Below, piece after piece: positions 22,266 through 64,000 of a stretch of DNA of 64,000 nt (within the stretch, counting starts at the first letter, position 1; each line of letters starts with the position of its first letter). A model generated the notes under the pieces. It searched no databases. It had not been told where the DNA came from and worked only from the letters and a program-made list of their open reading frames with translations. Source of the stretch: Isoetes taiwanensis (Eukaryota; Streptophyta; Lycopodiopsida; Isoetales; Isoetaceae); contig JAJEKV010000051.1 in NCBI GenBank assembly GCA_021234155.1, forward strand, positions 8,018,105 through 8,082,104. Direction: 5' to 3'. A program made the position numbers and the translations under genes.

Positions 22266-22599
22266 CTGACACCACGGTTGAGTTTAAGAGTGGCGAGAAT
22301 AGATATTTCTGCTTGATTTTTTAAGTTCAAAGATGAAAGCAACGGACTAAGAAGACGTGTAATTCACTAGCGGATTTATAATTGGGCAAAGATGTGAGAT
22401 GGGATTAAGATCGAAAGTGTATGAGTGATGAATATACACTCCATACGTTTGGAGACCTTGCTTTGCAAAAACATGGCCTTTCTATCATTGTAAAGGAGCA
22501 AACCTCAATGCTTGGTCATAGTTTTGTAGCTACTTGATGAGATCATATAGATTTTGGCATAAAACCTAACGGTTCGTATGTGCGATGGTTCTTGAAGTA

Positions 22600-40566: not shown

Positions 40567-41156
40567 TGTTGGATTAATAAAAAAAACAATTCCTTGCAAG
40601 GATGTAAGCTCGACACAATGATTTACTTGTACTTTCAATCTAGCAATATTAAATCAATAAAACATCTTCAAGTACAAAAGCATCTAGTATCAAGAAAGCC
40701 AAGTTATGGTCATTCATTCCTTGATATGCTCAAAATCATTTCATCACTTTTACTCTAAGCAATGAGTACTTCCTAAGCTCAAACTATAGATCATCATCAT
40801 CGAGAGCTCCACACACCTCAAACCCGGCACCCCATTCCTATGTATCTCTTGCACGACGGTTACGGCTAGATCTCAGTGACTCAGAATAGAAACCTCATCT
40901 ACAGCTTATATCCCACATGCCAACAAAAGGAATATAGCGTTTTCATCAAGCACATAAGGCACATAAAGCACTTAAAGCACATAAAGCACTTATATGCATA
41001 AAGCACTCAGTTGTATACGAATCTTCAACTGTAAGACCATTACAACCCATCGCCACTTTGCTTCTCATAGGTTGATCTTGAAAGTAAAAATATATTCACT
41101 GCCACTGCTTCTCATGAATATAAGATGCATATAATATAACCTGATACACACTAACA
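40567..41156 (-). repeat. Copia 3' LTR
   Basis: In the plus direction it starts TGTTGGATTAAT and ends CACACTAACA, forming the TGTT/AACA inverted terminus. It contains a run of CATAAAGCACTTA-like words near 40,960-41,005. The adjacent polypurine tract lies at 41,157-41,170. Confidence 0.97.
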
Positions 41157-41274
41157 TCCTCCTTCATGTTATACTTATATGCATTATTTTCCCTTTTAGA
41201 TAGCTAAATCTTGTCTCAGCTAGAGATTTTGTAAGCAAATCTGCTAACCGATCTTGATCTGATATATACCATAT

Positions 41275-42660: not shown

Positions 42661-42854
42661 TATCCATTTATCCTTATCTCGCTGAATTTAATACATCCTC
42701 ATATGTACTTGGAATATTTGGATCTAGATGAGTCGGGATCTCAAAAAAATACTATCCAGCTCTCCTTCTATATCTTGAAGTCTTTTACTCTTACCTCGAG
42801 TTGTTCTACCATGAATTGATGGATCAACCTTGATATTTGCTTGCCGCAACCTTT

Positions 42855-43252
42855 CTACTTTGATTGATTTTTTTTTCTCGATGGTATGACAGCACTGGTT
42901 GATGACTCTGATGGCTCAGCTGAAACACCTTGATTTTGGACTTGTGTTTCTTCTGAGTCACCTACTTCTTCATTGGTGTTCTCCTCAATTTCTGCATTTA
43001 TATTCTTAAGGTCATCACGGAGCATCATCATCATAATCAACCACTTTAGTACTTGACCTATTATTTTCAAAGATTATCAACATTCGTTATGTTCTCAATA
43101 ACTTCCTTTTGCTTGTTTTCCTTTATCAGAACTTTATACACTTGTGTTTCATCAAATGTAACATCCCTACTCACCACTACTCCTCTTGTGCTTGGATTAT
43201 ATAATCTGTAGGCTTTGGATTGTTTATCATACCCAACAAGGTAGGTAATCAT
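42855..43252 (-). pseudogene. Copia integrase C-terminal region and linker to RT
   Basis: YLVGYDKQSKAYRLYNPST and RDVTFDE are the standard copia IN C-terminal block (GY....KGYRL.dP.t..v..SRDV.FdE). It is followed by an acidic linker containing NAEIEENTNEEVGDSEETQ, typical between IN and RT. Two frames (43,252-43,067 and 43,070-42,855) overlap. Confidence 0.85.
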
Positions 43253-43420
43253 GGCCTGTCATCCAGTTTCCTCCTCGGTTCTTTCCGGAATGTGTGTGTA
43301 GGCCAAGCATCCATACAATCTTAGCCTACTATAATCCGGTGTCTTCCCCGACCAAAGCATATCGGGAATTGCACCTTGTATGCTCACCGAAGGTAGGCTA
43401 TTTTGAATCATGGCAGCGGC

Positions 43421-44356
43421 TTATGCGGCCTCTTCCCATAGGAAATTTGGAAGCCACGAAAATTTCAACATACTTCTACTGACATTAAGCAAGGTTCTGT
43501 TCTTTCTTTTGCAATCCCATTCGTTGAGGCGTGTATCCGCAAGTAAGTTGTCTTTTATTCCTTTCATTTTGCAATATTGTTTAAATTCCCCTGACAAAAA
43601 TTCTCCACCTCTGTCAGACCTCAAGCATTTGATCTTCCTGCCAGTTTGAGTCTCAACTTCATTTACATATTGTTTGAACACTTCCATTGCCTTATGTTTT
43701 GTTCTCAAACAATAAATGTGAGTATGTCTACTAAAATCATCAATCAGGGTCATGAAATATCTTTTTCCAGATAAGCCTGTTACATTCATAGGTCCACATA
43801 AATCAGTATGTACAAGATCTAATAACCCTTGTGCCTTTTTGTTGGACCTTTTGAAAGCTAATCTACTATGTTTGCCAAGAGCACATCCAGGACATACAGT
43901 TTTTCCAGTTTCATTCAAGTCTGCTTCAATAAATCCTTTTTTGCATAAAAGCTCAATAGTTTTTGAATTTACATGACCAAGTCTTCCATGCCATGTATCA
44001 ACTGATGGCATGGTTATAAGATTAAGACAAGCTGGTTCACAATGTATAGCTTCAAGTCCAAATAGATTTCCAATCCTTTTTCCAATAAACTTCACTTTAT
44101 TTCCAAGTAACACATTACATTGCAATCTCTCAAACACAACCTTATAACCAAGGTCTACCAATTGAGCAATAGAAATTAAGTTTCTAACAAGTCCAGGTAC
44201 ACACAAAACTTTTCTTAACACTACCTTCTTTCCTTGCAAATCAAATAACTCGAGCATCCCACTATCTTTAATTTGCTTGAGTTCTCCATTCCCAAACCCG
44301 AACATGTCACCGGCTTCACCCTTACAATTTTTCAATAGCCTTGAGCTGGACGCCAT
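43421..44356 (-). pseudogene. Copia protease end, pre-integrase and integrase core
   Basis: A 311-codon frame contains the pre-integrase motif DTWHGRLGHVNSKT with CPGCALGKHSR. Next come the integrase core HTDLCGPM (first Asp) and RSDRGGEFLSGEF (second Asp), and a DCKRKNRTLLN segment where copia usually has the catalytic Glu (VERKNRT); here Glu appears to be replaced by Lys. The frame continues to LPNFLWEEAA and stops. Its protease half is joined to the previous frame by an indel near 44,340. Integrase inserts the cDNA; as read, this one is probably inactive. Confidence 0.9.
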
Positions 44357-45438
44357 CTGATTTTTCAGCTCCTGAATCTAAAATGAGAACACCCTTGTCA
44401 TGACATTTTTCCTTTGAAAAATAATTATTTGAGATGTTTACCTCAATATCTTCATCCAGCTCTTCCTCCTCGGATTCTTTAACCATATTTAAGCTTGGAC
44501 TGTTTCTTCCTCCTCTGTTTTTATTCTCAGAATATTTCTTATCTTGTGCTTTATTTCTTTTTGGACTAGGGCACTTATTTGCCATATGACCCTTCCCTTC
44601 ACAATTATAGCATACTATTTCTCTGTCTATCTTAGGACAGTTTCTCTTCAAATGTCCATAACTGTTACATTTAAAAGCAGGGGACCTAACTTTTCTTTAT
44701 CAAATAATTTCTTACCTCTTTTGCCGGCATATAGAATTTACGCTTCATCATCATCGCATCCTTCCCTTGCTCAAACTCGCACGAATCATTTTGATAGCAT
44801 GCTCCTTTGACACGGCAACATTTCTTAAAAGAGTAGCAAGTTGTGAGTTATGAGATCTGACTCTAGAAATGGCAGCAATTGGTAATCTTCATTCAAGACA
44901 ACTCCCGCACCCTCAAGGTCAGCAATAATAGACTCAAACTTCTCAAGAAATTCAGTGATGTTGTCTTTTTCATAAAGTTTTAATCTTCTCAAACTGTTTT
45001 TCCAAAGACATCAATTTGAGAGGATGATTTAACCTCAAAGTTATCAATCATATACTTCCACATGTCTGCTGGAGATTTACCTCTTAATTTTAACTTTATC
45101 ACAGTTCCAACCTTGTTACTAATTATTGATTGTGCTTCCATAATTTTCGTTTTCTCTTCTGCACTTGTCCCTCTAGTACTTGTACTACCAGTTCCTCTTA
45201 CATCTGCAGTTTCAGTTTGTGCACCACCACCTGCAACAGAACTAGCACTGGCACTACCACTAGCTGCTCCAGCACTTCCACTACTTGCTCCAGTACCAGC
45301 AGTATTTGAATCACACAAGTACCATAAGTTCTCAAACTCCAATACTTCCTTTATTCCTTGCTTCCATAACTGGAATCCGCTATCTCCCTTAAACACCTCT
45401 ATGGAATTAAGGAGATTAGCTCCAAACCGTGTTGACAT
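44322..45438 (-). pseudogene. Copia gag with zinc knuckle and start of protease
   Basis: The ATG at 45,438 opens MSTRFGANLLNSIEVFKGDS, a copia gag start (SIEVFKGDSGFQLWK), including a Gly/Ala/Ser-rich insert at residues 46-75. The frame ends near 44,989. A second frame (44,651-44,322) has the zinc knuckle CYNCEGKGHMANKC (CCHC complete) and then LILDSGAEKS, the protease active site D-S-G where copia normally has DSGAS. The frames are separated by indels around 44,660-44,990. Gag forms the particle; the knuckle binds RNA. Confidence 0.9.
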
Positions 45439-45457
45439 CCTGCAGTTGGAATTTTAT

Positions 45458-45471
45458 GGCTCTGATACCAA
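45458..45471 (-). promoter_or_regulatory. Copia primer-binding site (initiator Met tRNA)
   Basis: On the minus strand TTGGTATCAGAGCC directly follows the 5' LTR end. It is complementary to the 3' end of plant initiator-Met tRNA, the standard primer for minus-strand DNA synthesis. Confidence 0.9.
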
Positions 45472-46060
45472 TGTTGGATTAATAAAAAAAACAATTCCTT
45501 GCAAGGATGTAAGCTCGACACAATGATTTACTTGTACTTTCAATCTAGCAATATTAAATCAATAAAACATCTTCAAGTACAAAAGCATCTAGTATCAAGA
45601 AAGCCAAGTTATGGTCATTCATTCCTTGATATGCTCAAAATCATTTCATCACTTTTACTCTAAGCAATGAGTACTTCCTAAGCTCAAACTATAGATCATC
45701 ATCATCGAGAGCTCCACACACCTCAAACCCGGCACCCCATTCCTATGTATCTCTTGCACGACGGTTACGGCTAGATCTCAGTGACTCAGAATAGAAACCT
45801 CATCTACAGCTTATATCCCACATGCCAACAAAAGGAATATAGCGTTTTCATCAAGCACATAAGGCACATAAAGCACTTAAAGCACATAAAGCACTTATAT
45901 GCATAAAGCACTCAGTTGTATACGAATCTTCAACCTGTAAGACCATTACAACCCACTGCCACTGCTTCTCATAGGTTGATCTTGAAAGTAAAAATATATT
46001 CACTGCCACTGCTTCTCATGAATATAAGATGCATATAATATAACCTGATACACACTAACA
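45472..46060 (-). repeat. Copia 5' LTR
   Basis: Same sequence and borders as the 3' LTR. It is followed on the minus strand by the primer-binding site at about 45,458-45,471. Confidence 0.97.
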
Positions 46061-46065
46061 TTTTT

Positions 46066-48762: not shown

Positions 48763-49280
48763 AAAATATTTGGTTTCAGTAACATTTGGCAAGAAAAGAC
48801 TTGCCAAATCTCAATGTTTATGATCCCTAGTCCTATTTATTTTAATAATCAAAGCCCTTTCCCTGTATTTCACGTGATTCTTTCCATCTCTGTGTTTCTT
48901 TGCATTTCCTATCTAAGCCTTTGGCAGCCTTGTAATTTAGTTTGCAGCCTTCAGATCATAGCAAGAATCATGCCAGGATCGGCGGTCAGACCTTCAGCCT
49001 CGGCAAGACTTAATTGGTCTTTTGGTCTTCTTTTCCATTGTAATGCATGTTGCCTTAGTAAATCAATTTAGGGCATATCAGTTTCTGATCTTTAGCCCGA
49101 TTAGATTCCATGTTAAGAATGAGGTAGTGGTGACTGCTATAAGTAGTGGTGATTTCAAATCAATGTGGTGAATTAACCTATGGAGACCTTATAATCCGAT
49201 ATTGGTATAATTGGTTTATTTGCTAGTTATATGATGTTTGGGCTCGATTGTTGTTTTGTGGCTATCTATGGTCGATGGAT
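48763..49280. other. AT-rich DNA up to the truncation point of the gypsy copy
   Basis: No motif is recognised. Gypsy similarity on the minus strand stops at about 49,283, so the junction with unrelated DNA lies there. Confidence 0.4.
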
Positions 49281-50744
49281 GTGCCAAAACATTCTGGGGG
49301 ATGCAAAGTTATGGCTACTTCCCGAGTCTATCAGGACTATGAAGGACTTGGCCTTGGCCTTCCCTACTGTGGAAATTACCTTGTACTGGCTCTCTGCTTG
49401 CTCTGTGTCTATTGCGGCAAAGATATGACACTCACCCTGGAAGTAGTCGCGGGCTGCCTCGCCGTCGTCGTCAGACATAATGTCCCAATCTCCCAACTCC
49501 GCTAGTGCCGCACTCATGACGTAAGGGCAGTTCGCTGTCCTCCTATGGCCTGGCTGGAAGCACCTGAAGCAAAGCTGCTTTTCTATGCACTCCTGTCTCT
49601 TTTCCTTGGGCATAGCCTGCAAAAAGGATCGCACTGCTTTGGAGTAGTTTGACCCCTCCTGCTTGTCCTTGAAGGACACCTGCTTCTTTTCCTGCTGCTT
49701 CCCCTGGTTGCCACCATATGGGGCTCTAGTTGGGCCTGGGCTGGCTGCCCTAGGGCTATAACTCCCTGTTGCCTTGCCTTTGTCCTGATAATACTGCTGC
49801 CTCTGCCCGCTATTCTGAGGCCCTGTTCCTTGCAAACTTATTGCCTTGGACTCTGCTTCTGATACTGTCTTAGGGTTTATTGCCCTTACAAGCTTGCGGA
49901 TCTCATCATTCAGCCCTTCAATATAGCTTTCCACTGCATGCTTTTCACCCAGCTTTGGCACATAAAGCCTTAGCCTCATGAATTCCTCTGTATATTTCTG
50001 GACTGATTTGTTTCCCTGTTGCAACCTATAGAACTGCTGCATCATGCTGGACTTGTGCTCTCTTGGGACGTAATGGCGCTTGAAGGCTTTAGCAAACTTT
50101 CTGAACCTGCAAGCATCCCTGCTCAAGCCATGGGCCTTTGCATACCCCTTCCACCAAATGCGTGCTGCTCCTTTCAGGTTGGCTGTTGCCACCCTGCCTT
50201 TATCCTTGTCCTTCATACCATAAGCGTTGCCATATTCACTCATCTCATCGAGCCAAGCCTCTGCCTCCATGCCTGACCTGTTCTCGCCTGAGAATTGCTC
50301 GAGCTTCCTGGCCTTCCAAACATTTCCCAATGCAGAGTCTACCTTCTTCTGGTAATTAGAGGTTCTTGTGTCCTTTTGTCGTCCATCTGTGGTATCCCTC
50401 TGCCTTCCATCTGCAGTGTTCCTCTGCCTTCCATCTGTTCGGACCTGGGCCTGCTCTTCCTCTTCCTCGGAGTCGGAGTCCGAATCGGAGCTTGAGTCGG
50501 AGGATTTCGAGCTGGAGGACCTCCTTCTCTTGCGCCTCTTCTTGTCCCTTCCTGTTTTCCGAGCTGATGCTTGAGGCAACTGAGCATTGCCCACCGAACC
50601 CACTCCTGCTTGTGCGGCCAGCAAAGCCTTTATCTGCTCAAGGTCTGTTCTCATCTGTGATATTTCCTCTTCTGGGGTCATGGGTCCAAATTCCTCAAAC
50701 AGGTTCCTTGCCGGGGGTGGCCTGGGCGGACTCTGTTCTTCCAT
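49266..50744 (-). CDS. Ty3/gypsy Gag and N-terminal protease (truncated polyprotein)
   Basis: The frame opens at 50,795 with a GTG; the first ATG is at 50,744 (MEEQSPPRPPPARN) and I take it as the start. In full-frame numbering: a basic/serine region (KKRRKRRRSSSSKSSDSSSD, about 90-115); three DGRQR(N/D)T repeats; the retrotransposon Gag capsid domain (LEQFSGENRSGMEAEAWLDE, ARIWWKGYAKAHG, LQQGNKSVQKYTEEF, about 165-310); the CCHC zinc knuckle CFRCFQPGHRRTANC (about 409-423); and protease active site FIVLIDSGSSHNFAS (D-S-G at 490-492). The frame ends 17 residues later where gypsy similarity is lost, so RT, RNase H and integrase are missing from this copy. TTGTGTATGCAG just upstream of the frame resembles a 3' splice site. 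Gag builds the particle and binds RNA. Confidence 0.93.
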   Translation of the reverse strand: MEEQSPPRPPPARNLFEEFGPMTPEEEISQMRTDLEQIKALLAAQAGVGSVGNAQLPQASARKTGRDKKRRKRRRSSSSKSSDSSSDSDSDSEEEEEQAQVRTDGRQRNTADGRQRDTTDGRQKDTRTSNYQKKVDSALGNVWKARKLEQFSGENRSGMEAEAWLDEMSEYGNAYGMKDKDKGRVATANLKGAARIWWKGYAKAHGLSRDACRFRKFAKAFKRHYVPREHKSSMMQQFYRLQQGNKSVQKYTEEFMRLRLYVPKLGEKHAVESYIEGLNDEIRKLVRAINPKTVSEAESKAISLQGTGPQNSGQRQQYYQDKGKATGSYSPRAASPGPTRAPYGGNQGKQQEKKQVSFKDKQEGSNYSKAVRSFLQAMPKEKRQECIEKQLCFRCFQPGHRRTANCPYVMSAALAELGDWDIMSDDDGEAARDYFQGECHIFAAIDTEQAESQYKVISTVGKAKAKSFIVLIDSGSSHNFASPRMFWHIHRP

Positions 50745-50962
50745 GTTGTCTCGGCGTTGTCGTTCCCCTGAGCCTAGGCCTCTAGCTGCATACACAAGTA
50801 ATTCATGGCTATATGGTTAGTTTTACTTGTTCTCTTGCATTATATGTGGTTTGTTGGCATAGTTGTGGAACAAAATACATCAACAAAACATTTAAGGTGC
50901 AAAAGAAATTATATTTATATTATATAATATTTTAGTACAAAATCTCCGGGATCAAGAGTCTA

Positions 50963-52485
50963 TTAATCTTGAAATCGCCGGTAAGATGGGTTGTCCTCAA
51001 GGAACTTCTTAACTTGGGCCGTTCCTATCGAGCTTCCCAAGTTCCTAAGGACATTGGTCGACGTCCCGCCCTGCAAGGCCGTCACCAACTCTTCCACCCT
51101 GCGGTCGGAGGTGTAGGCCGCGGTTACTGCCAATCTTCCCTGCCGTCGGTAGGGCACGGCGAAGTCAAAGAGGTCAAGTGCCATTGCTCTCTTCACTAGG
51201 ACAGCATAGTCGACATTTGCCGCTATTCGAGCATGCCTGCCGAAGCCTGAGAGTGCAATAAGCATGAACACTCCTTCTTCACCTCGTGGGCTGAATTTGC
51301 GGTGTATTACCGCTATTCTCCCATCCAGAGCAGGGGCAGGTAGTACCTCAGCAACCTGTCGTTGTGTGTCGCAGATGATTCTCCACTTGTTTGGCCTCCC
51401 GCTCTATGCCGTCCAGCGTAGTCGTCGACCTCTATCTCAGTCAGCTCTCGGTAGTCTGCAATTGTGGAGTCGACTCGCCTGATGTCGATTCCTGCTCCTC
51501 TTGCTGGAGGTGGTGTCGAGGGGCTCGGCATCAAGATGCTGGTGGTCTTGCCTCTGATCCCCATTCGTTCCTGAATGGCGAGGAACTCTTCTTCCGATGG
51601 CAGGTCTCCGGCCTCCATAACCTGTCTTATGTTGCTGTAGGCCTGTATATCAGACGTCGACTCCCCTGTGTAGGTGTCGGCTTCTCGCACTTGAAGCGGG
51701 AAGTCTGAGGCTCCCCGGACGATGAAGTCGTCCATTTCTGGTTGCCGTAGTTGGTGCAGCAACTCATCAAGTCTGAGCTCCCTCTCCCTGCATTCAGGGA
51801 GGTTCTGGATGTCACTGAGGAGTAAATACTCCTCTCCGTTGATGATGATGGGGGCTAGGCTTGTGATGCCTAGCCCGAGTGGGGGAGCAATTCTGAGGGT
51901 CTGCCGGCTCCGCTCCATGTTGGCCAGCTCCTCTTCTGCTTGGCGCCGTTCTTCGTCTGAGTTGAGCTCCGTGTACTCTTCGTCGTCCGACTCCTCTTCT
52001 TCTTCTCTTCCTTCTTGCTCCTGCTGGTACTGCAAAAGCATCCGCTCTGCTGCTTGGGCTGCTATGGGGTCCACCTCCATCGGAGGGATAGAGGTTGCCC
52101 CCATTGGGTTTTCGGCGCGGTGGGATAGGAAAATAGCTAGGGCGGCGGTGTAGGAGAAATACTTGGTCCTGTCAACTGTCAGGACCATGTAGTCTGGCAG
52201 CCTCTGCGCCTTGTTAGTCAAGTACTTGGCGATGTTGGGGACATCACCCAAGGCTGCTTGAAGGGATGGGCGGGGAACAAAGTAGCCTATGCAAGGGGGG
52301 AGCTGAACTAGGGAGGGTCCTACCCTAGCTTGGAACTCTGCTAGAACTTGTCTATATGCTAGGGTTGCATTTAGAGTGGCTTGGACATCTATTTCTTTCC
52401 CAAAGACTCGGAAGATGTCATTGACATCCGCCTCGGCAGCATGGGCACTGGCGCTGTACCATCGCCTGAAGTCAGCAGTGGCCAT
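50963..52485 (-). CDS. Unidentified accessory protein with acidic tract (cassette 2, one frameshift)
   Basis: The ATG at 52,485 lies about 115 nt downstream of a CTATAAATAG box and opens 390 codons (MATADFRRWYSASAHAAEAD). It has a folded-looking N-terminal part (about 1-130, with FVPRPSLQAALGDVPNIAKY and YMVLTVDRTKYF), then an acidic tract (EGREEEEESDDEEY, about 165-180), and helical charged sequence to the stop near 51,313. A second frame overlapping this end continues to 50,963 (IAVIHRKFSPRGEEGVFMLI, GFGRHARIAANVDYAVLVKR, a conserved-looking 100-residue C-terminus), so one indel near 51,320-51,360 probably splits a protein of about 500 residues. I recognise no family. Acidic tracts occur in histone chaperones, but that resemblance alone proves nothing. 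It lies between the H3-like gene and gag on the same strand. Confidence 0.6.
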
Positions 52486-52598: not shown

Positions 52599-52608
52599 CT
52601 ATTTATAG
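52599..52608 (-). promoter_or_regulatory. TATA box of cassette 2
   Basis: On the minus strand CTATAAATAG followed by ATCCCCCATTTC. It lies about 115 nt before the ATG at 52,485. The decamer and following CCCCCATTTC, and a later GCTCTCG(A)CTGC..GGCGATCT leader block (plus coordinates about 52,545-52,566), are shared with cassette 1. Confidence 0.7.
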
Positions 52609-52798: not shown

Positions 52799-52865
52799 GT
52801 CTCACACGTTGCGCCCAGACCGATAATGAAAAGTTCATTTTCTGCCCTGGCGCGACGTGTGAGAC
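52799..52865. promoter_or_regulatory. Palindromic module P1 (A-type, 67 nt)
   Basis: Arms GTCTCACACGT and ACGTGTGAGAC are perfect complements. Inside them GCGCC pairs with GGCGC, and the centre has AATGAAAAGTTCATT, itself a hairpin (AATGAA/TTCATT). It lies about 190 nt upstream of the cassette 2 TATA box on the minus strand. Confidence 0.9.
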
Positions 52866-53000
52866 ATGGGCTCTAAATGGGTTAAACTTGATCAATTTGG
52901 GTAATCTAAGGGTGTAATTCTACTGGACTTATCGAGATAGGCAGAATTGACCCCTTATTTGGTCGATTTGGAGCTGTTTTGGGCATTTTTGGGTACCATG

Positions 53001-53049
53001 GTCTCACACGTGAGATTCTCATTTTCTGTCCTGGCGCGACGTGTGAGAC
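53001..53049. promoter_or_regulatory. Palindromic module P2 (B-type, internally shortened, 49 nt)
   Basis: Same outer arms GTCTCACACGT and ACGTGTGAGAC, but the left GCGCC block is deleted. The centre is the B-type TGAGATTCTCATTTTCTGTCC. It lies about 140 nt upstream of P1 on the minus strand and just after the end of the H3-like gene. Confidence 0.9.
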
Positions 53050-53193
53050 ATCGTCTCAATTTTGCTCAAAAACTCCAATTTGATCAAAACAAAAGCTAGA
53101 ATTCAATATTTTAACCTAGTTAAGCAAGATTGGACACATTATTTACACAAAAATTCTTTATATTAACAAAATTTTTCATTATTTACAAAAAGT

Positions 53194-54365
53194 TCAAGGG
53201 CGTTCTCCCTTGATGTGTCTAGCCAGATGCATATCCTGTCTCATGAGTGTGACCCTCTTCGCGTGAACTGTGCAGGCCGTCGAATCTTCAAAGTGCTGCA
53301 CCAGTTTTTGCTCTGCTGCCTCCTGTAAGCACAGCAACATTTCGTCGGTCACCCGCATGTCTGTGTTATATTTCTGCATAACCTCTCGGACCAAGCGTTG
53401 AAACGGTGCCCGGGGGTTCAAGAGTCCGTAACTTCGCTGGAAGTGCCGGATTTCCTTGAGGGCTCTCTGCTCCTTCTGCTTGCTGTTGGTCCGCTTCTTT
53501 CCTGGTGCTCTGGGAGGCTTGGGCCTGGGTGGCGACGGCTTCAGGGTCTGGCTTTTTGTCGGGCGTCCGCCTTCTTCGGATAGACCTTGACGGGGTCTAT
53601 CACGTACGCCTCCCGTTGTGGCCGTGGGGCTTTGACCCTATCCCACGTCGGGAATGGTGGGGGCTTCGGCGCCTGCCCGGGCTGCTCCTGCTCAGGTGCC
53701 ACCTGCTCGGGTACTTCCTTCTCCACGACCGGGGGTTTCGAAGAGCTTGCCCCCCCAGTGTTGGGGATGTAATCTTCGTCCGAGTCGTCGGTAGAAGGCG
53801 GGGTCTGCTCGCCTGATGGCTCATTGATGACGGGACCCTGCGCTCGCCTACCAACCTTCACAACTGTTCTCTTGCCCGCCTTAATGCCTTTGGCCCTCTT
53901 CCTCTTCGGCTCGCCGGCTGTGGTTGGCTCGTCCTCCCGTCTTTTTGTCCTCCTCTCTCGGCGGCGCTCTTTGGCTTCATACTTGCTGATGAACGCCGCG
54001 AGGTCTTCTTCTTCAGCAGGGCTAAGCTTCGGCTGCCGCTGCTCCTCTCTCTCTTCAGCTTCCTGCAGACGGGCCCAAGCTTCGAGTTGTTCCTCGACGG
54101 TTGGCTGTCCTTTCTGCTCCCGTTCCTCCTTGCTCCTCCTTTCCTCCTCGGCGATTTCTTCGAGGATCTGGTGCATGACATCCAGCTGCTCCTCCCCTAT
54201 GACCTCTGTTCTGTCGCTTTGGTCCGAGTGTGCCTCCTCACTGGATGAAGATTCGCCTTGCCGAAAAAGGCGTTCTTGAAGTATCCTCTGTATCAGGGCG
54301 GGGTCACTAGCGCTGGAAGATTCGCCTCGGCGGGGCTTCCTAGCAGTCTGCTTTGTCCGGGTCAT
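53194..54365 (-). CDS. Retrotransposon-borne histone H3-like protein with long inserted region (one frameshift)
   Basis: I chose the ATG at 54,365, about 100 nt after a CTATAAATAG box; the frame is open further upstream (ATG at 54,518), but that lies before the TATA box. After Met, the protein starts TRTKQTARKPRRG, which matches the histone H3 tail through K9 except T for A1 and P for S10. About 260 charged, low-complexity residues follow (acidic SSSSEEAHSDQSD, NLS-like PKRKRAKGIKAGKR, TDDSDEDYIPNTGG). A TGA at 53,541 ends this frame. In the frame one base back, the sequence continues without stops to 53,194 and encodes a full H3 fold: alpha-N ALKEIRHFQRSYGLL, alpha1 PFQRLVREVMQ, loop 1 with TDMR, alpha2 LQEAAEQKLVQHFED, then CTVHAKRVTLM and DMHLARHIKGERP. 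By H3 numbering R83, C110, H113, R116, D123 and L126 are kept. My own alignment to canonical H3 gives about 47 of 89 identical residues without gaps. Full length would be about 390 residues versus 135 for H3. It is the first cassette after the primer-binding site. Confidence 0.88.
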
Positions 54366-54465: not shown

Positions 54466-54475
54466 CTATTTATAG
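54466..54475 (-). promoter_or_regulatory. TATA box of cassette 1 (H3-like gene)
   Basis: On the minus strand CTATAAATAG, then ATTTAGGCACCCCCATTTCC. The ATG is about 100 nt downstream. The leader (plus about 54,396-54,425) shares GCTCTCG(G)CTGC..GGCGATCT with cassette 2. Confidence 0.7.
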
Positions 54476-54567
54476 GGGTCGATTTTAGGTCAAATTTCAA
54501 ACTACCTTTTTGGGTCATCTGGAATACCTAGAACACCTAAATTCAAGCATGGTCTCACACGTTGCGC

Positions 54568-57500
54568 CATAGTTACCCGGAACGGGAACTTTTTGGGAAC
54601 TTTGACCCAAAATCCGGAACGGGAACGGGAACGGATGGGAACGGGAACGACCAACATTCAAATTTTTCATTTTTGAAAATGGATTTGAAGTTCCCTTTGC
54701 TTAAAGAACATCTTAGAACACTTAGAATTAAAAAATGTTTCAAGGGGAGTGAGTTGCAAGCCTAAACATCTATAGCTACTCCGTAACAATAATATTAGAA
54801 CTTTAAACAACATTTTCCCATTTAGAACGTATTTTTTTAAGTTAACATATTGTCATTTATCAAAACATACAAGTTGAAATATTTATAAAGCATAAAGAAC
54901 ATAAGTCACATAATATAATAAGTTCTTATAATTTCAAACCTTCTATTTTCATGGCCTTCATCAACCTGCAAAGTAAAATTAAATATGTTTTAAATCACAT
55001 AATAGCTAGAAAGTAGGAAATAGTACATATGTGAAATAAAAAAAGAATATTACCTTCATTTTGTTCCCCTAAACCCTCATCCTCTTCATCCACTGAATCT
55101 TCTGCATTTGCATGACTTGTGTCTTCTCCATTTTCATTCCCATCTTCCACTATAGGTGGAATAGTTTCTTCTCGGTGCAGCCCAATAAATCTTTCACTTG
55201 CATTATCCAACATCGAGGAAAGCTCAATTAAGCGCATATTTGCAGCAACAAACGCTAAGTCATTGGTTTTTTGAGTGCCAAGACGATTTCTCTTCTTCGT
55301 TGCAATGTCTCCCATGGTGCTAAACAACCTCTCCATGGAAGATGAGCTGCAAGATTGTGACAATATCTTAATGGCCAGTTTTTGCAAGTTATTCTTTTCT
55401 GCCCCATTCTCTTCCCACCACAATGTGGCATTCACATGAAAGCGATCCTTCTTAGCATCTCTTGTTCCAAACATCCCTTCGCCTACCCTATACTTAGACC
55501 ATGCAGAACGTACATCTCTTCTTATATCCTCATCAGGAACTAATTTTTCAAGCATTTGATTCCATCCAATCATGACAAGCCTTTCACTTTCTTGATCTTG
55601 CCCTTGGAATTCAGGGTCAAGTATATAAGCGGCCGCATGAATAGGTGAATGATATTCCATCCATCTATCATTAATAAACCCCACCAACTCTGAGCGTATA
55701 TAATCATCATGCTCAACATTCTTCACGTGCGCAATCAAGGAATGCATACCCTCAAATATCTTGCCAATGCAAGGAAAAGGGCCATCCACAAGTCTAAGCA
55801 TCAAAATTATTGGCTTTACAAGAGCTAAAATATGAGCAACATCTTCCCAAAAACTCTCATCAAATAAAATATCAAAGCACAATTTGCTTGCCTTTGTACG
55901 AGACTCCTTAAGATTCTTGAAACTTGGACTCACAAACAATTGTTGCAAAGGTGTCAAAAGCTCATGAAGGCGTTCCAACATAATGAAATTGTAGCCAAAC
56001 CTAGTATCTGAATACTTCAAAAGCTTCTTATAAGAATACGTTTGCAATGAAGCGCTTACCTTGGAATGGTTCTTCACAAAAGTTACAACCTTGTTCCCTT
56101 TCTCACATTTGCAATGTGAGGTAGCTTTGTAAAATCCTTCAGCAAGTTATTAATGCAATGTGCCATACAAGGTGAGAAGATAATGTGAGGAAACTCTGCC
56201 ATAATCATCTTGCCTGCGGAACGGTTAGCTTGCTCACCATCTCCAACAATTTGAATAACATTTTCAGCACCAACTTCTGCCCCTGCAACACGCAATAACT
56301 CCATGTATATGCCTCCCTTGAGTGTCGGACCAGCCATCAACAATCAATGAGACACCCCATTTTACCCAATGCCCACGCAATGTGTCAAGAGTCATTGTTA
56401 CCTCTTTCTTCTCCCTTGCTACCAAAGATACTCTCAAATCTTCATACTTAGGGAGTTCCATATTTGGACCACATTTCCCTGCTTCTGCCATCATGTATTT
56501 GAAGTGATTATCTCTAATAACATTGAAAGGAATCTTATTGTGGATAAAGTGCCTTGCAATGGACCGCCAGAATCTATCTTTTCTTTCTGGATCAAGACTA
56601 TCCTGAATATTCTTTTGTCTCTTTCTTGCTGCTGGTGGTGAGAAATAGCTTTCTAGATTTGAAGTGCATCCTCCGCCAGATGAACCGGACATAAAGTTTG
56701 TAGGTGGAAGTGTAGGTGTAGAAGCCATAGGACTCACCAGGGCTGCTGCACATCTTGCAGCATTCAGCCTACTATTCTTGCTTGCCGTAATGCCATCTAA
56801 AATTCTAGAAAAGTTTTGAAGGCGCTCCTTAGTACCATCATCAATTGCGGTGCAATCCCTTGATCCTGTCCCTTCTCCAGTCAAATGTTTTTTCACTCTG
56901 TCAGTTCCTCCAGTTGTTTCATATGAACAATACCTGCAACGCCACTTCCTAGCACCACCACTAGTAGGAGGAGGACCAACCAAAATAACTTCGTCCCACC
57001 ATTGTGAAGGATTGGGCCCTTTTTTTCGGGCTTTTGCTCTCTTAGGAAGTACGGATGATGCAATTTCCTCACTCTCCTCATCGGGTTGTGGAGCATAATT
57101 CACATCACGGTCTTGATCATCCATATTTGATTGATTGATTGATTGCACCTAAAACAAGAACAATAGAAGAATGCTTAATACAATAGACAAACAATAGATA
57201 AATAGAAGCAAGAACGTAGCAAAAAAAAAGAAATATACGAAGCTATAACTTACTTGGAACTTGGAAGCGCTGAAGTTCTGATCAAGAGCTTTAATATTTC
57301 TTCTCTATTTCCGCCTTATTCTAGCAGCCTGAATCAAAAGCAAGCAATATAAGAATTAGCAAGAGCAAATGGGCAGTCATTTTCTGCCAAATAGGAACAA
57401 ATTCATTGAATGCCCCTGTTGGCAGCACATCATGATGAAAGCAATGAAAAAAAGCTGCTCTAACATAACCACCAGGTTCTTTATTAACAGTTTTTTTTGC

Positions 57501-58359
57501 TTAATCAAAGCTTTTTAACTGTCAAGACCTTCTGACTGTTAAAATACTGCAAGATCTAAGCTAGTAGTAGAAGAAAAAATAATCTCATGCAAGGATTCAT
57601 GATATAATGCAGACAACCAAACATAGAAAACAGTAATAAAAACATGGTTCAATCAAAAACTTACTGTTCTGGTGGTCCTGAGTCTGGCATGAGAGCAGCT
57701 CAGCAGGTAGAAGAGTCGGCAGCAGAGTGGGTAGAAAAGTTGGAGCTGGAAGCTTCTGTGCAAGATGAACAGGCTGATCGATGCAAATGAAAAGAAATGA
57801 AAATGCAAATGCAAGATGAATGCACAGGCTGATCGATGCAAATGAAATGCAAATGCAAATGAAATGAAAATGCAAATGAAATGAAAATGCAAACCTTTTT
57901 GAGTGATAAGAGTCGGTAGCAGAGCAGCTCAGCAGGTAGAAGAGTCGGCAGCAGAGCAGTGAGGTAGAAGAGCAGACAGGAGAGTCGGCAACAGAGCCTC
58001 TCCTATGATCGATCCTCTCCTATGATCGATCCTCTTCTTTGACAGACTGGCAGACAGTCTTCTCTTCTTTGACGGGCAGACTGGCAGAGGCGGGAACGAA
58101 GAACAGTAGCAGCAAGCAACGTAGAAAAACCAAAAAAAAGGAATTTTGTTATTGACTTTCTTGAATTATTCGAAACAATTGGGGGTTAACAATTTCTTTA
58201 CCGGGAACTTGGTTCCCAGAAAATGGGAACTAGTTCCGGAACTTAGTTCCCGGTAACAGGCCAAATGGGAACATCCCCAAGAGTTCCCGGAACGTCCGAC
58301 CCCCGGGAACTAGTTCCGGAACGGGAACGAAGTTCGGAACTTAGTTCCCGGTAACTATG
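54568..58359 (-). mobile_element. hAT DNA transposon, 3.8 kb, with perfect 8-bp target duplication
   Basis: The element starts CATAGTTACC and ends GGTAACTATG, a perfect 10-bp terminal inverted repeat. It is flanked by CGTTGCGC on both sides (54,560-54,567 and 58,360-58,367), the 8-bp target duplication expected for hAT. Both subterminal regions are packed with GGGAAC/GTTCCC words (54,576-54,650 and 58,199-58,349), probable transposase-binding repeats. It carries one transposase on the minus strand, broken by at least one frameshift. Purine/pyrimidine-biased repeats (AAATGAAATGCAAATGC-type) lie at 57,780-57,895 between the transposase start and the right end. Confidence 0.96.
54995..57124 (-). 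pseudogene. hAT transposase (BED finger, DUF659, hAT dimerisation), disrupted
   Basis: The first ATG is at 57,124 (the frame opens with GTG at 57,148). In full-frame numbering: BED-type zinc finger with C71, C74, H88 and C99 (WRCRYCSYETTG), then DUF659-like sequence (FIHNKIPFNVIRDNHFKYMM) and the first catalytic Asp region LIVDGWSDTQGR. The frame is lost near 56,264. A second frame (56,343-56,083) continues with ENVIQIVGDGEQANRSAGKM (second Asp) and PHIIFSPCMAHCINNLL; the stretch normally lying between seems shortened. A third frame (56,077-54,995) starts at KNHSKVSASLQTYS and has the C-terminal dimerisation motif SSSSMERLFSTMGDIATKKR. The last two frames differ by one base near a GAAAGGGAA run at about 56,095. 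As read, no complete transposase can be made. Confidence 0.92.
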
Positions 58360-58553
58360 CGTTGCGCCCAGCCCGATAATGAAAAGTTCATTTTCTGTCC
58401 TGGCGCGACGTGTGAGACATGGTGGGTCCCGCTGCTAAATTTTATACTTTCTAAGCATATAACATGCTAATTCTACTACTTCTTAGCTCAAATTTAGAAT
58501 TATCATGTTATTTTTCTGTGATTTATAACTTTTTAGTGTGTTTTAAGCTGAAT

Positions 58554-58620
58554 GTCTCACACGTTGCGCCCAGCCCGAAAATGAGATTCTCATTATCTGT
58601 CCTGGCGCGACGTGTGAGAC
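58554..58620. promoter_or_regulatory. Palindromic module P4 (B-type, 67 nt)
   Basis: Outer arms GTCTCACACGT and ACGTGTGAGAC; inner GCGCC/GGCGC; centre AATGAGATTCTCATT, a hairpin with stem AATGAG/CTCATT. It lies about 190 nt after the primer-binding site on the minus strand and is the most upstream module of cassette 1. Confidence 0.9.
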
Positions 58621-58812
58621 CACCCTACTTTTTGAAGGTTGGCTCACCAATTTTAGTCTTTTTATGTTTTCATTCATTTTAACTGGTTACTAGCTTAGCA
58701 TAACTACAAAAATGAGAAAAAAAAATTCCCATTTTTCGAGGCTTAAAGATCTTATCAAGTTAGTACTACTGGGAGCATGGCCAGTGCTTTGCTCTTGGTC
58801 TCCAAGAACATT

Positions 58813-58824
58813 GCTCTGATACCA
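58813..58824 (-). promoter_or_regulatory. Gypsy primer-binding site (initiator Met tRNA)
   Basis: On the minus strand TGGTATCAGAGC, one base after the LTR end (GACGTCACA, G, TGGTATC). It is complementary to plant initiator-Met tRNA. It marks the LTR as 5' LTR for copy B to its left. Confidence 0.95.
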
Positions 58825-59751
58825 CTGTGACGTCCCCTACTCATATACGGTGCACCCACCGTATACAAACAGGAGTTCATCCCCCATACCAGCTCCATAC
58901 TGATACAGGGCCCTCCACAATCACTGCACCCGTAAAGAGTCCCAGTGGGAAGAGTGAAGGGGTCATTTCACTCCGTCTCCCTCGGGGCCTACCTAGCTGC
59001 GGAAGCGTAAACATACATGTCAGTATACAACATAAACACATATCCACCTCGAAGGGTGGGGCATCAACATCTGCATAGACAACGATCAACATCATACATA
59101 GGGTCCTACCCAAGGCTCAGACTCGAAGGGATGACTGACGGCTTGGGTCTCCATAGTTCATTGCAGACAGAATTCATGGCAATGGATTTGGCTGGCATAA
59201 GAACATGACCTAGGGTTGTCCACTCCATCCGCCCCTCCTGTGCACACTTTGCAGAGTAGGCTGAAAAGTGTTGGGACCTGACTGTAGCCCGCCGGGTGCA
59301 TAGCCAAAGGGGCTATTCCTGGGTTGCATCTCCCCAGTCCCGATGGGGCAGGTAGGGATCTCCCCCTCCAGAGATCTACATGCTGACTCGAGGAGACTAG
59401 AGGGCCACTGCCCTTCTTCGACTTGAACCCACTGGAGAGTGACGCATCACCCCACGGGTGTCGAGCCCATGCCTTGCCCACACTCAGTGGTAAGCCATTA
59501 GACCTAGTCCCAATGATCCCCGGTAGACATTACACACCAGAGGGATCGTTCAAGAGTCAGAACACGAACCTCTTTATAAGCCAGTCTGGCCCCTTCACCC
59601 ACAACCCGGTGTGGCTCTTGTGCACAGGCCGCATCTATAGTGTGCTAGAGAGGCTAATCTAGGAGCATCTACTACCAAGCTTTAGGTCTCTTCCCCCCTT
59701 CCCAATACACGGAGTTCATAGAGATACATCAACCATATACATCACAGAAGA

Positions 59752-59806
59752 ACTAAAGAACTAGACCTAATCTATATCATAGATTTAGGTTCTTTAGTTA
59801 GAGTCT
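59752..59806. repeat. Hairpin in the gypsy LTR
   Basis: AACTAAAGAAC with CCTAATCTAT pairs with ATAGATTTAGG and GTTCTTTAGTT, a stem of about 20 bp with one or two interruptions. It lies downstream of the TATA candidate on the minus strand, so the RNA would include it; a role in packaging or RNA processing is possible. Confidence 0.7.
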
Positions 59807-60182
59807 GGTATCTAGAGATCTAGAGGGCTGCTATGGGCAATTTAATAGGCTAAACCTACTGATTCGAAGACTAGAAGATGGTTTAGGCTATTAAATTGAC
59901 CTAAATACCCGATCCTTGAGTTCCTCCTCGACTGAGCTCAACCATCACGCCAAACCGCTTTCGAATCGAGGGAAACTAATGGGGCAATTCGCCGCAGGGC
60001 CAGTGCTGGGGGGCGGTTTTGACCCACAGGGCGATCAAAACAGAGCTCTAAAATCCTAGAAACGAAAAATGGGCAAGTTAGGGTTTCCTTTCTTAAATAG
60101 ACAAGGGGGTTGGCTAGGGTTTCCAATTATCCCCCTTAGGCATGTGGGATAATTGCGAATGGGCCCACTTGCCTTTAATGGC

Positions 60183-60365
60183 TAGGTGGCAAAATGTGCC
60201 CACATGGAAAGGTGTGCACCTTAATAAATGTGCACATTGGTAAATGTGCACATTAATTGCACACTTGGGTATGGCCCACTTGGCATAAAGTGTCCACATG
60301 GGAAAATGTGCATCTAGATAAATGTGCACATGGTTAAATGTGCACATTAATAAATGCACACTCCT
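60183..60365. repeat. Tandem AATGTGCACATT palindromes in U3
   Basis: TGTGCACATT-type words occur at least six times (for example near 60,225, 60,245, 60,325 and 60,341) with AAATG spacers, together with related GTGTCCACATG and GTGCCCACATG. They lie 130-310 bp from the U3 border, where LTR enhancers usually sit. Confidence 0.8.
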
Positions 60366-60495
60366 TGCAAGTTGCCCCCCTAGGGGCTACCCGCCTGGCT
60401 ACACATCGGCGTACACGTCAGTCGGGGTGGCGTGTACGCGTGACGGGGCAGTATAGTATACGTCCTGGGACCGTATACTGTGCTGGAACGTCACA

Positions 60496-60508
60496 TTCTC
60501 CCCACCTT
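60496..60508 (-). promoter_or_regulatory. Gypsy polypurine tract
   Basis: On the minus strand AAGGTGGGGAGAA ends exactly at the LTR start TGTGACGTTCC. This is the primer for plus-strand DNA synthesis. Confidence 0.9.
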
Positions 60509-60848
60509 GAAATGATGCTGTCCGCAGCATCGCGGGTCTCCCCCCCTTGGAAACTTCCTAACCTACAATCAACCTGATACATACGATATACTACTATAAT
60601 ACTTACACATTTACTGAGATTACCTTAAGGTAATATTTTTAAAACATTATTACGCCCTTAACTTATAAAATAACTTATCAATCTATAACATCGTCAAACA
60701 AGTTACTCAACAATTCACTTATCACAACAATTTAGTTTATCAAAATTTTAAATTAACGTTTGAGGTACTCTTCATTCCTTGCAACACATTCCAACAAAAT
60801 TTGTGTTGCAAGTCTTCGTAGCTCGACCTTTTTGCCCTCCGGAGCGTT

Positions 60849-61871
60849 CTATTGGCCTGAGCCAATTTCTTCGGAGATGACCTTGCCGTCCCATTGCTCC
60901 ATAAACTGTGGGTACTGCTTTAATAGATCCTTCTTGAGTACCCATGTCGCGTCTTCCACTGGCAAGTGTTTCCACTTGACCAAGTATTGGAGAAACTCTG
61001 ATCTCCTTGTTTTCTTGAAGGCTTTATCAAGAATTAATTCTGGAACTATTTCCAGCTGCTCCTCCGTCATTTCCAACAACGTTGGAGTGTCTAAGACTTC
61101 GTCTGGATTTGGAGTGTGCTTCTTCAACAAACTCACGTGGAAGACCTTATGAATCTTTAGGTGTGCTGGCAAGTCTAGCTTGTAGGATTGACTACCTACT
61201 TTCTGGACTATTCTGAAAGGTCCAGCCCACCTTGGAGCAAGCTTCTTGCAATTCCCGATTGTGAGCTTCGCCTGCTTTACCTTGATCTTCAACCAAACAT
61301 AGTCTTCAACTTGGAACTCTCTAACTGTTTGATGCTTGTCGGCGATGCTCTTTTGTCGACTCCTTGCCGCTAGGAGATATCCTCGAACTTGCTGCATATC
61401 AGCCAACATCTGCTGCGAAACTTCTACTTTTGACACGGGATTGTGCCAAGTGTCTGGAGTTAGGCATTGATAGTCGTAATTGATCATAAACGGCGACATT
61501 TGGGACGATTCCTGCTTGGTGCTATTATATGCAAACTCCACCAAGTGAATAAATTCTTCCCACATACCTTGCTTATTCCAGACATAGTTTCGTAGCATGT
61601 CCTCCAAAATTCTGTTGGTCCGCTCCGTTTGGCCATCCGTCTGAGGATGATACGCCGTGCTCATTGATAGCTTCGTCTGAATGGTCGCAAAGAGGTCTTG
61701 CCAAAAGGCACTCATAAACTTCGGATCCCTGTCGGAGATAATCTCCCTTGGCATGCCATGAAGCCTGAAGATCTCTTTGGTGAAGAGCTTTGCTGTATCC
61801 ATAGTCGTATCTGTGGTCCTGCAAGGCACAAAATGTGCCATCTTCGACAACTTGTCGACCACTACCATCAA
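60849..61871 (-). CDS. Integrase core and C-terminal chromodomain (chromovirus)
   Basis: 340 codons. The core has SDRDPKFMSAFWQDLF (second Asp, D47) and YHPQTDGQTERTNRILE (Glu, E83), giving the D-x35-E spacing of integrases; the first Asp is in the preceding frame. The GPY/F module KLAPRWAGPFRIVQKVGSQS with FHVSLLKKH is at about 205-250. The C-terminus 277-325 (PELILDKAFKKTRRSEFLQY, LVKWKHLPVEDATWVL, LLKQYPQF) is a chromodomain of the chromovirus type. In related elements the chromodomain directs insertion to chromatin with methylated histone H3. A frameshift near 61,880 separates it from its N-terminal part; otherwise it is open to 60,849, about 340 bp before the polypurine tract. Confidence 0.93.
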   Translation of the reverse strand: MMVVVDKLSKMAHFVPCRTTDTTMDTAKLFTKEIFRLHGMPREIISDRDPKFMSAFWQDLFATIQTKLSMSTAYHPQTDGQTERTNRILEDMLRNYVWNKQGMWEEFIHLVEFAYNSTKQESSQMSPFMINYDYQCLTPDTWHNPVSKVEVSQQMLADMQQVRGYLLAARSRQKSIADKHQTVREFQVEDYVWLKIKVKQAKLTIGNCKKLAPRWAGPFRIVQKVGSQSYKLDLPAHLKIHKVFHVSLLKKHTPNPDEVLDTPTLLEMTEEQLEIVPELILDKAFKKTRRSEFLQYLVKWKHLPVEDATWVLKKDLLKQYPQFMEQWDGKVISEEIGSGQ

Positions 61872-61885
61872 GGCATCTTTCCCTC

Positions 61886-62455
61886 TTACCGTAGCCCTGT
61901 TATAAAATCCATGCTAATGACCTCCCACTTAGCGTTTGGCACCGCTAATGGCTCCAAGGCTCCTGGGATTCGAAGCTGCTCTGCTTTGGTCTGCTGACAC
62001 AGCTGGCATTCCCGAATGTATCTAGCTATCTGTTTCTTCATTCCTGGCCAGAAATAGCTGCTTCGAATCTTGAAATAGGTCTTCATAAAACCCGCATGCT
62101 CGGCTATTGGACTGTTGTGCGTGTCATGAAGAATTAGCTTCCTTACCCCTGATGATTCGGGCACGCACAACTTATGCTTATGATACAACAGGTTGCCTTC
62201 CTTCTTATAATGCTTGAAGGCTTCCCGTTCTTTATCTGTTCTAGCCTTCCTAGAGAGGCTTTCCCATGCTTCCTTGAATTCCGTGTCTGTTGGCAGAGAT
62301 TCTTCAATCTTCTTCCCAAAGTCGTTGGAGAGCGTCGAAATTGCATTGCAATGCACTCTAGTTGTCAGGGGATGCCTTGAAAGCGCATCTGCTACCACAT
62401 TGAGCTTCCCTGGCTTGTAGACTATATCAAAGTCATACTCTTCCAGGAACGCCAT
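61886..62455 (-). pseudogene. RNase H end, integrase zinc finger and first catalytic Asp
   Basis: The frame reads KPGKLNVVADALSRH (end of RNase H), then a linker and the integrase HHCC finger (IAEHAGFMKTYFKIRSSYFW, then CQLCQQTKAEQ). It ends WEVISMDFITGL, where the Asp is the first of the DDE triad. It stops at 61,886; the next frame resumes within a few codons (VVVDKLSKMAHFVPC), so a single indel near 61,880 separates them. Confidence 0.92.
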
Positions 62456-63697
62456 CTACCTCTCTGCCTCAGGTTGAGGTGTGGTTGTTTGAATACGTAC
62501 TGGAGGCTCTGATGGTCTGTATCCAATTGGAACTTCCTTCCCAAAAGGTAATGCCTCCAAATTCTTAATGCCCTGACAACCGCAAGCAATTCCTGATCAT
62601 GCGTGGGGTAAGCGTTTGGCGTCGTTCATCTTCACCGAGTCATACGATACCACACGGTCTTCCTGCATGAGCATGAGCACTGTAGCTATCTTACTGCGCA
62701 TCCGTGGCTACAAGCTTATCTTTTTCTGGGTCTGGCAAGGTCAAGACAGGGGCGGTCGTCAGAGCTTCCTTCAACAATTCAAACCCCGCTTGGGCTTTCT
62801 TGTGCCAATGCTCGCCCAATCTTTCACCTTTTCCGCCCTTTGTCAGTCTGTTGGCGGGGCGCTATCTTGGCAAAGTTCTTCACAAACCTACGTAGTACCC
62901 TGCTAGGCGAGAAAACTTCGACCTCATGCACATTCTTGGTTGCAGGCCCTTTGAATGGCGACGACCTCAATCTTGGCGGGGATCCGTCGATATTCCTTCC
63001 TTTGAGATCATATGACCCGGTATTCTACTCTCCGTTCTGGAAGTGACGCCGACAACTTGGCATGCATAACCGGTGCCTCTTCAACTTCTCCGGCCTCTCC
63101 TTAAGTGTTGTAACGTGTTCTTCAAGGGATCTCGCTATACACCAAAATGTCATCAAAGAATACTATCACAAAGGTGTCCAAGAACTCCACGAAGATGTCG
63201 TTCATGAGCCTCATGAAGCGTTCTTTGGGGGCATTCGATAAGCCGAAAGGCATTAAAAGGAACTCATAGTGCCCATACACGGTCTTGAAAGCCGTCTTAT
63301 GGATATCTTCCTCCTTTATCGGATCGATGATAACGACCTTAAGTCAATTTTGGAAAAGACCTTTGCACCACTGGAGCTGATCCATCAAGTCATTTGATCC
63401 GGGAGCGCATACTTGTTCTTAATGGTGTGCTTATTCAAGCGCCTATAGTCTATGCACATCCTTAAAGCGCCATCCTTCTTCTTAACAAGCGGAATGGGCT
63501 CGAACGGGCGAGACACTAGGTCTAATGAAGCCTAGGTCGAGCAACTCCCGCAATTGCTTCTTTAGCTCTGTCAACTCTGGCGTCGTCATTACGTATGGAG
63601 CCTTACTTGTCGGCTTTGTTCGGCTCGAAAGTGCTATCTCGCTTTTCGACTCCCCTATAAGGAGGGAGCTGCTTGATCTCATCTCGAAAGAGATCAT
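62456..63697 (-). pseudogene. Gypsy reverse transcriptase and RNase H, frameshifted
   Basis: The start [20 protein letters not shown] with [12 protein letters not shown] (63,600-63,500) is the classic chromovirus RT entry. The catalytic box reads [12 protein letters not shown] at about 63,130-63,170 (Asp-Asp kept, first position F). RNase H begins near 62,750 with TLPDPEK and a VATDAQ remnant of the ETDAS motif, and is followed by [20 protein letters not shown] at the start of the next frame. Frames change repeatedly, so the enzyme is not functional in this copy. Confidence 0.85.
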
Positions 63698-63722
63698 GGA
63701 ACTCGTGATCGTTAGCTACCGC

Positions 63723-63971
63723 TTAGGTAACTTCTTTGAGCCCTTCATCCTCCTTACCTTCTTCTGGCTCAGGCTCTTGGATCTCAAGCTTGAAGATATA
63801 AGCTACCTGCTCACTCCTTATGCACTTGAGCATCCGTTTAGAAGACATACACTGCATGATGGGAACAACTTCTTTACCTCTGATCTCAATGATCTTGCCG
63901 TCGGGCGTTGGGAAGGTCACTTTCCGCTTTCCACAATCAACGATGGCCCCTGCTGGTCCAAGATACTCCAT
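63723..63971 (-). pseudogene. Gypsy protease C-terminal part
   Basis: MEYLGPAGAIVDCGKRKVTF, then EIRGKEVVPIM and a glutamate-rich end (EPEPEEGKEDEGLKE), the usual stretch between protease (GMDWL...) and RT in chromoviruses. The active site itself would lie beyond 64,000. The frame stops at 63,723, just before the RT frame. Confidence 0.7.
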
Positions 63972-64000
63972 TCCTATGATCAGGTCATACTTGCCAATGC

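Follow-up and report, generated by a model that had tools for sequence, protein, structure and literature searches.

Several mobile elements that carry a histone or another host-type gene have been described. According to the available part of its report, a hAT-type DNA transposon of Pyrenophora tritici-repentis carries an H3-like gene, H3L, for which ESTs are reported along with 26 H3L genes of very high similarity (PMC3538342). As at the locus described here, this mobile element combines the H3-like gene with genes of its own and with another ORF of unknown function, but it is a fungal DNA transposon with terminal inverted repeats (PMC3538342), whereas our locus belongs to an LTR retrotransposon and combines a linker of approximately 265 residues with TATA modules of its own. 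Among plant Ty3/gypsy elements, the Gypsy elements of Phalaenopsis hold an AlkB-type 2-ODD gene, a host-type gene that was stably acquired in Phalaenopsis as an additional ORF, although it encodes an RNA demethylase and not a histone (PMC9289625). The accessible sections of the same study describe a screen of 121 angiosperm genomes with 15 extra domains, nine of which are named there, with no histone among those nine. Plant LTR retrotransposons with additional ORFs likewise hold extra genes beyond gag-pol, and the available portion of a review of such elements names no histone and places the most frequent extra ORFs between pol and the 3′ LTR (PMC7264820). Giant DNA viruses such as Melbournevirus and Medusavirus, which are reported to bring core histones of their own, offer a further parallel but are large DNA viruses. 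In addition, some retrotransposons read chromatin marks via a chromodomain, as reported in the available text for MAGGY and H3K9 methylation (PMC3350952). Among the papers listed in searches of the open-licence PMC literature, none was on an H3-carrying LTR retrotransposon. While elements with acquired host genes are already known, an H3 gene in an LTR element of plant type has, as far as we could find, apparently not been described before.

Here, an H3-like gene was located at 53194-54365 on the minus strand of the window, the whole stretch of 64,000 nt that was analysed, and all features of the surrounding element given below lie on the same strand. Read from high to low coordinates, the order is a pol half, polypurine tract, LTR, primer-binding site (PBS), a leader with hairpins, the H3-like gene, further hairpins, a second ORF (ORF2) and gag-PR. 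The LTR (58826..60495; 1670 bp) has TGTGACG...CGTCACA ends, is directly preceded by the polypurine tract CAAGGTGGGGAGAA (60496..60509) and is followed, one base past its end, by the PBS TGGTATCAGAGC (58813..58824), which we take to be of the initiator-Met tRNA type. The Ty3/gypsy hallmarks, namely an LTR with TG..CA ends, a PBS and a polypurine tract, are thus present with a single LTR in the window and no pair, and no second LTR copy was seen among the repeats listed for the window (20 of 27 direct-repeat families). Gag and the start of an aspartic protease occupy 49266..50795 (Pfam Retrotrans_gag 6e-18, Ty3_capsid 4.7e-16), and gag-PR stops short near 49290, as placed by eye from the reading frames. 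On the opposite side of the one LTR, a degenerate half with PR, RT, integrase and chromodomain spans 60849..63998 (Integrase_H2C2 1.5e-19; Chromo, PF00385, 1.5e-10). A single LTR flanked by a polypurine tract and a PBS is how two tandem elements sharing an LTR would look. The initial annotation had placed the gene in a gypsy retrotransposon, and this context holds insofar as a chromovirus-type LTR element contains the H3-like gene, but the element is not complete in one piece, as gag-PR is broken and the pol half lies beyond the LTR.

The chromodomain that follows the integrase retains the tryptophan of the aromatic cage and lacks the other two of the three cage aromatics, Y24 and Y48, whose positions were placed by eye in an alignment to a Chd1 chromodomain. 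In the available text of the study that defines it, the plant group II chromodomain is characterised by the absence of Y24 and usually of Y48 (PMC3350952), and the chromodomain of our element has these features of the plant chromovirus group. The designation of the element as plant type is deduced from this chromodomain type (PMC3350952, as far as available) and from the neighbouring features. Since two of the three cage aromatics are missing, it is doubtful that this chromodomain directly reads the K9-methylated tail of the element's H3-like protein, and it probably has no such simple self-reading role.

The LTR, PBS, H3-like gene, ORF2 and gag are consecutive, with one insertion in between. 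This is a nested hAT DNA transposon (54568..58359, minus strand), foreign to the LTR element, with a hAT dimerisation domain (1.7e-12), DUF659 (6.9e-9) and a weak BED finger below the cut-off. Its insertion duplicated the 8-bp target CGTTGCGC, now found at 54560 and 58360, and it sits inside a leader hairpin; the same 8-mer is also present in two of the other hairpins. A histone gene carried as hAT cargo, as in Pyrenophora, was considered and rejected: the target duplication of the hAT at 54560-54567 marks its end there and leaves the H3-like gene outside. When the nested hAT is set aside, the H3-like gene is the first gene past the PBS, as originally proposed, and the leader from the PBS to the H3 start codon measures 662 nt.

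The first part of the H3-like gene (53541..54365) encodes the tail MTRTKQTARKP and a charged linker, 274 aa in all, and is closed by a stop codon. The H3-like N-terminal tail, beginning at 54365, was confirmed by a six-frame scan of the window, in which TRTKQTARKP matched ARTKQTARKS at 8/10 positions as the top hit, compared with 5/10 for the runner-up. The replacement of S10 by proline and the retention of K4 and K9 were likewise as first described. The linker between tail and fold comprises approximately 265 charged-region residues, and the tail and linker part displayed a 3-base periodicity of 0.0376, compared with a maximum of 0.0195 among 500 shuffles. The tail frame is open farther upstream, as far as an ATG at 54518; the start was nevertheless set at 54365, because a TATA box at 54474 falls between the two positions. 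The N-terminal position of the tail, with 54365 as its start codon, is therefore deduced from the promoter, and on an LTR-driven transcript the tail could be internal rather than N-terminal.

The second part of the gene (53194..53637; 147 aa open) lies in a different frame and encodes a complete H3 fold from alpha-N to alpha-3. The stop codon of the tail frame lies at 53541 and the fold frame opens no earlier than 53637, which amounts to a -1 frame change with a 97-nt overlap, and codon usage places the switch roughly between about 53600 and 53510. The expectation that tail and fold share one frame was thus not borne out in this copy, and as the two frames differ, no single continuous protein can be made from it unless an intron or a programmed frame change intervenes. 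Because both the H3-like gene and ORF2 are frame-broken, the simplest reading is that the element copy in the window has decayed.

The identity of the fold as a histone H3 was established by several comparisons. Its best Pfam match was the histone family PF00125 (E 1.6e-28), followed by CENP-T at 5.4e-4, under its cut-off, which excludes a better fit to a non-histone family. Against PDB sequences, 175 matches were obtained, the best of which was histone H3.3 (E 2.3e-27). Alignment to a canonical plant H3.1 reference from outside the databases revealed 48/89 identical residues with no gaps, in agreement with the gap-free fold reported in the initial annotation. The H3-H3′ contact positions C110, H113, R116, D123 and L126 are all retained, loop 1 is of canonical length with no CENH3-type insertion when compared with non-database reference sequences, and VTLMR is present in alpha-3, all as first noted. 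A structure model of the fold, of low confidence (mean pLDDT 57.7), placed the helices in H3 order with alpha-2 split; in a Foldseek search with this model, the best 50 of 155 matches were nucleosome or hexasome entries, at TM-scores of only ~0.3. The probability of a chance resemblance to H3 is negligible, and we reject it given E values of 1e-27 to 1e-28 for the fold and the separate match of the tail.

We then compared the derived residues of the fold with those of other divergent H3 proteins, using eight of 15 other sequences, with P0013 left out and with CENH3 references likewise from outside the databases. At sites where both the window fold and Arabidopsis CENH3 differ from H3.1, the same residue was found in 11/26 cases (2.25 expected), and the corresponding counts were 9/22 for rice CENH3 (1.62 expected) and 6/21 for maize CENH3 (1.68 expected). 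Human CENP-A shared 6/20 (2.19 expected) and yeast Cse4 3/16 (1.83 expected), while the proteins P0002, P0007 and P0008 of our protein collection shared 9/23 (2.38 expected), 7/22 (2.33 expected) and 4/21 (2.2 expected), respectively. All eight share residues above expectation, Cse4 and P0008 slightly, and plant CENH3 and P0002 the most. In a tree that included these CENH3 references, the window fold adjoins the three plant CENH3s with a support of only 38. The VTLMR and ALKEIRHFQ stretches of the fold are, we presume, as in Arabidopsis CENH3. The earlier description of the protein as a mosaic or a diverged H3 agrees with these derived residues, which other divergent H3s also share. On this sequence evidence, we call the fold a divergent H3 with CENH3-like residues, and not a CENH3.

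When the whole H3-like protein was compared with the protein collection, 13 matches were obtained among 4278 candidates, 12 of which cover 14 to 26% of the query and one of which, P0002, covers 54%; a close relative of the whole protein was not found among them. P0002 (317 residues) resembles the window protein in that it starts with MTRTKQTARK, continues with a long middle part and carries an H3 fold near its C-terminal end, with 46/90 identical residues in the fold. However, its middle part is not clearly related, and the linker match is insignificant. Both P0002 and P0011 open with an H3 tail and carry an H3 fold near the other end, separated by a long middle part, and long-tailed H3-like proteins may be more widespread. 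No relatives were confirmed in viral_contigs or genome_contigs, collections of viral and prokaryotic sequence in which little was expected.

The H3-like gene is accompanied by ORF2, which is also split between two frames. Its first part (51313..52485; 390 aa) is 42% identical to the protein P0014 and has no Pfam match, and its last part, in the other frame (50963..51310), shares 65% identity with the C-terminal portion of P0014. The frame of ORF2 is broken near 51310, whereas P0014 (501 residues) runs uninterrupted. In full, ORF2 would amount to about 500 residues and, by eye, includes an acidic stretch. No Pfam family was found for ORF2 or P0014, comparison of ORF2 with the PDB gave matches only at E 0.6 or worse, and a further protein search, with scoring confined to the 8000 candidates that had most words in common with the query, returned P0014 again and nothing else. 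The structure model of ORF2 (mean pLDDT 39.7) was unusable.

Both genes have a TATA box (TATAAAT) upstream, at 54468..54474 for the H3-like ORF and at 52601..52607 for ORF2, as part of a TATA/5′UTR module common to the two; the modules align with a score of 37, compared with 22 for the best of 200 shuffles. An LTR origin of these internal promoters was considered and rejected, as their similarity to the LTR was not above that of shuffles. The third-position GC was 0.65 in the N-terminal part of the H3-like gene, 0.61 in the fold frame and 0.62 in ORF2, as opposed to 0.45 in gag. Because the module is shared and the third-position GC is unlike that of gag, the H3-like ORF and ORF2 look like one long-cohabiting cassette. 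A hairpin of the form GTCTCACACGT...ACGTGTGAGAC was observed in four copies beside both cassette genes; of the three that were folded, two are very stable and one is weakly so. In the leader, one copy lies at 58552..58621 (-39.8 kcal/mol, z -8.05) and a second, split by the hAT insertion, at 58360..58422, both belonging to repeat D9. Between the H3-like gene and ORF2, a shortened copy lies at 53000..53051 (-17.2 kcal/mol, z -2.5, with 5/200 shuffles as good) and another at 52799..52865 (-40 kcal/mol, z -9.67). Before gag, TTACTTGTGTATGCAG (50760-50830) resembles, by eye, a 3′ splice site, and gag may be expressed from a transcript in which splicing has removed the H3 cassette.

Past selection was weighed against neutral decay by several measures. 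The fold sites kept from H3 (46/86) vary less than the replaced sites among 10 H3-like proteins (0.72 vs 1.43 bits, permutation p 2e-5), a set that comprises the 13 proteins found minus P0009, P0012 and P0013 and that, having been found by resemblance to the query, favours this result. In three non-database CENH3 references, a different comparison set, the kept sites showed 0.66 changes vs 1.55 at replaced sites (p 7e-5). Neutrality was rejected only weakly by a simulation of 400 runs starting from H3.1, in which no stops arose in 9% and the conservative fraction was reached by 64/400 runs. The BLOSUM sum of the fold was 236, compared with a simulation mean of 212 (sd 11, maximum 238). The 3-base periodicity of the fold frame was within its shuffles, as was that of the last part of ORF2. 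The pattern of kept fold sites fits past selection, and host selection prior to capture could also give it.

The reading that we favour, with moderate confidence, is that a chromovirus stably acquired this divergent H3 gene, which would once have been functional in the element and is now decayed. Its once-functional status, which we hold jointly with stable acquisition, is supported by the kept sites, by the shared TATA/5′UTR module together with the third-position GC, and by the conservation of ORF2; against it stand the one copy and the breaks in both cassette genes. Those same observations speak for a one-off capture, in which a single copy took up a gene of the host, for H3, CENH3 or a long-tailed H3 variant, that has been decaying since with no role in the element. 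The weak rejection of neutrality in the simulation also agrees with such an event, and captures in one or few copies are described in the part of the review available (PMC7264820). We nevertheless judge a one-off capture unlikely, for the kept sites track constraint in other H3 variants (although pre-capture host selection would match this too), the linker retains coding periodicity, ORF2 is conserved in another source (P0014), and the promoter modules of the H3-like gene and ORF2 have diverged from each other, pointing to a long residence. Alternatively, the H3 and ORF2 cassette may belong to a host gene pair or to another virus or element and have entered an ordinary gypsy element by insertion in its leader. 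The cassette's own TATA modules, its third-position GC unlike that of gag and the lack of a Pfam match for ORF2 are compatible with this origin, and the hairpin repeats that flank the H3-like gene might be the borders of a unit that was moved or duplicated. However, the hairpins start ~190 nt past the PBS, within the leader itself, and no other repeat surrounds the cassette among the listed repeats (20 of 27 direct families, at least 40 nt), so that we consider an insertion of this kind quite improbable.

If the gene was acquired by the element, as we favour, the following course may be envisaged. A plant-type chromovirus (Ty3/gypsy, with a chromodomain integrase) would have gained a divergent H3 and ORF2 as a two-gene cassette between the PBS and gag, with a separate internal TATA promoter driving each gene. 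The H3-like protein could then pair with host H4 and enter host nucleosomes as a long-tailed H3 variant, whose tail would be able to carry K4 and K9 marks but no S10 phosphorylation. Chromatin altered in this way over element copies or target sites might result in escape from silencing or in a choice of insertion sites. We regard this chromatin-deposition mechanism as tentative. A more specific version is doubtful. In it, a chromovirus lineage would encode a CENH3-like histone bearing an H3-type tail, together with ORF2 as its partner protein, would express the two from internal promoters and would assemble nucleosomes of its own at its copies or target sites. As a special case of the favoured acquisition, a CENH3-type histone might steer the element to centromeric chromatin. 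The residues shared with the reference CENH3s of Arabidopsis (11/26) and rice (9/22), the plant CENH3 neighbours in the tree and the common VTLMR and ALKEIRHFQ stretches point in that direction. Yet the support of 38 for the grouping, the 9/23 residues shared with P0002 as well, the loop 1 without a CENH3-type insertion, the canonical-like tail and the canonical H3s among the best PDB matches argue against it, and we find this centromeric role distinctly unlikely.

Retrotransposons are silenced by their hosts via H3K9 methylation. A histone H3 provided by the element, in which K4 and K9 persist while S10 is replaced, could change the very substrate on which silencing acts. If the element did build its own nucleosomes, a retrotransposon would write, and not merely read, its chromatin. 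An H3-carrying element would also be a natural experiment on the residues that a foreign H3 has to retain, and if the histone derives from CENH3, the locus would bear on how elements establish themselves at centromeres.

Other repeats were observed elsewhere in the window. At 40567-46061, two direct repeats of about 592 bp, which are 99.2% identical and lie 4905 bp apart, delimit an element whose inner ORFs look copia-type by eye and which is probably a recent insertion. At 22548-25320, a repeat array has a period of about 925 bp and contains inner repeats.
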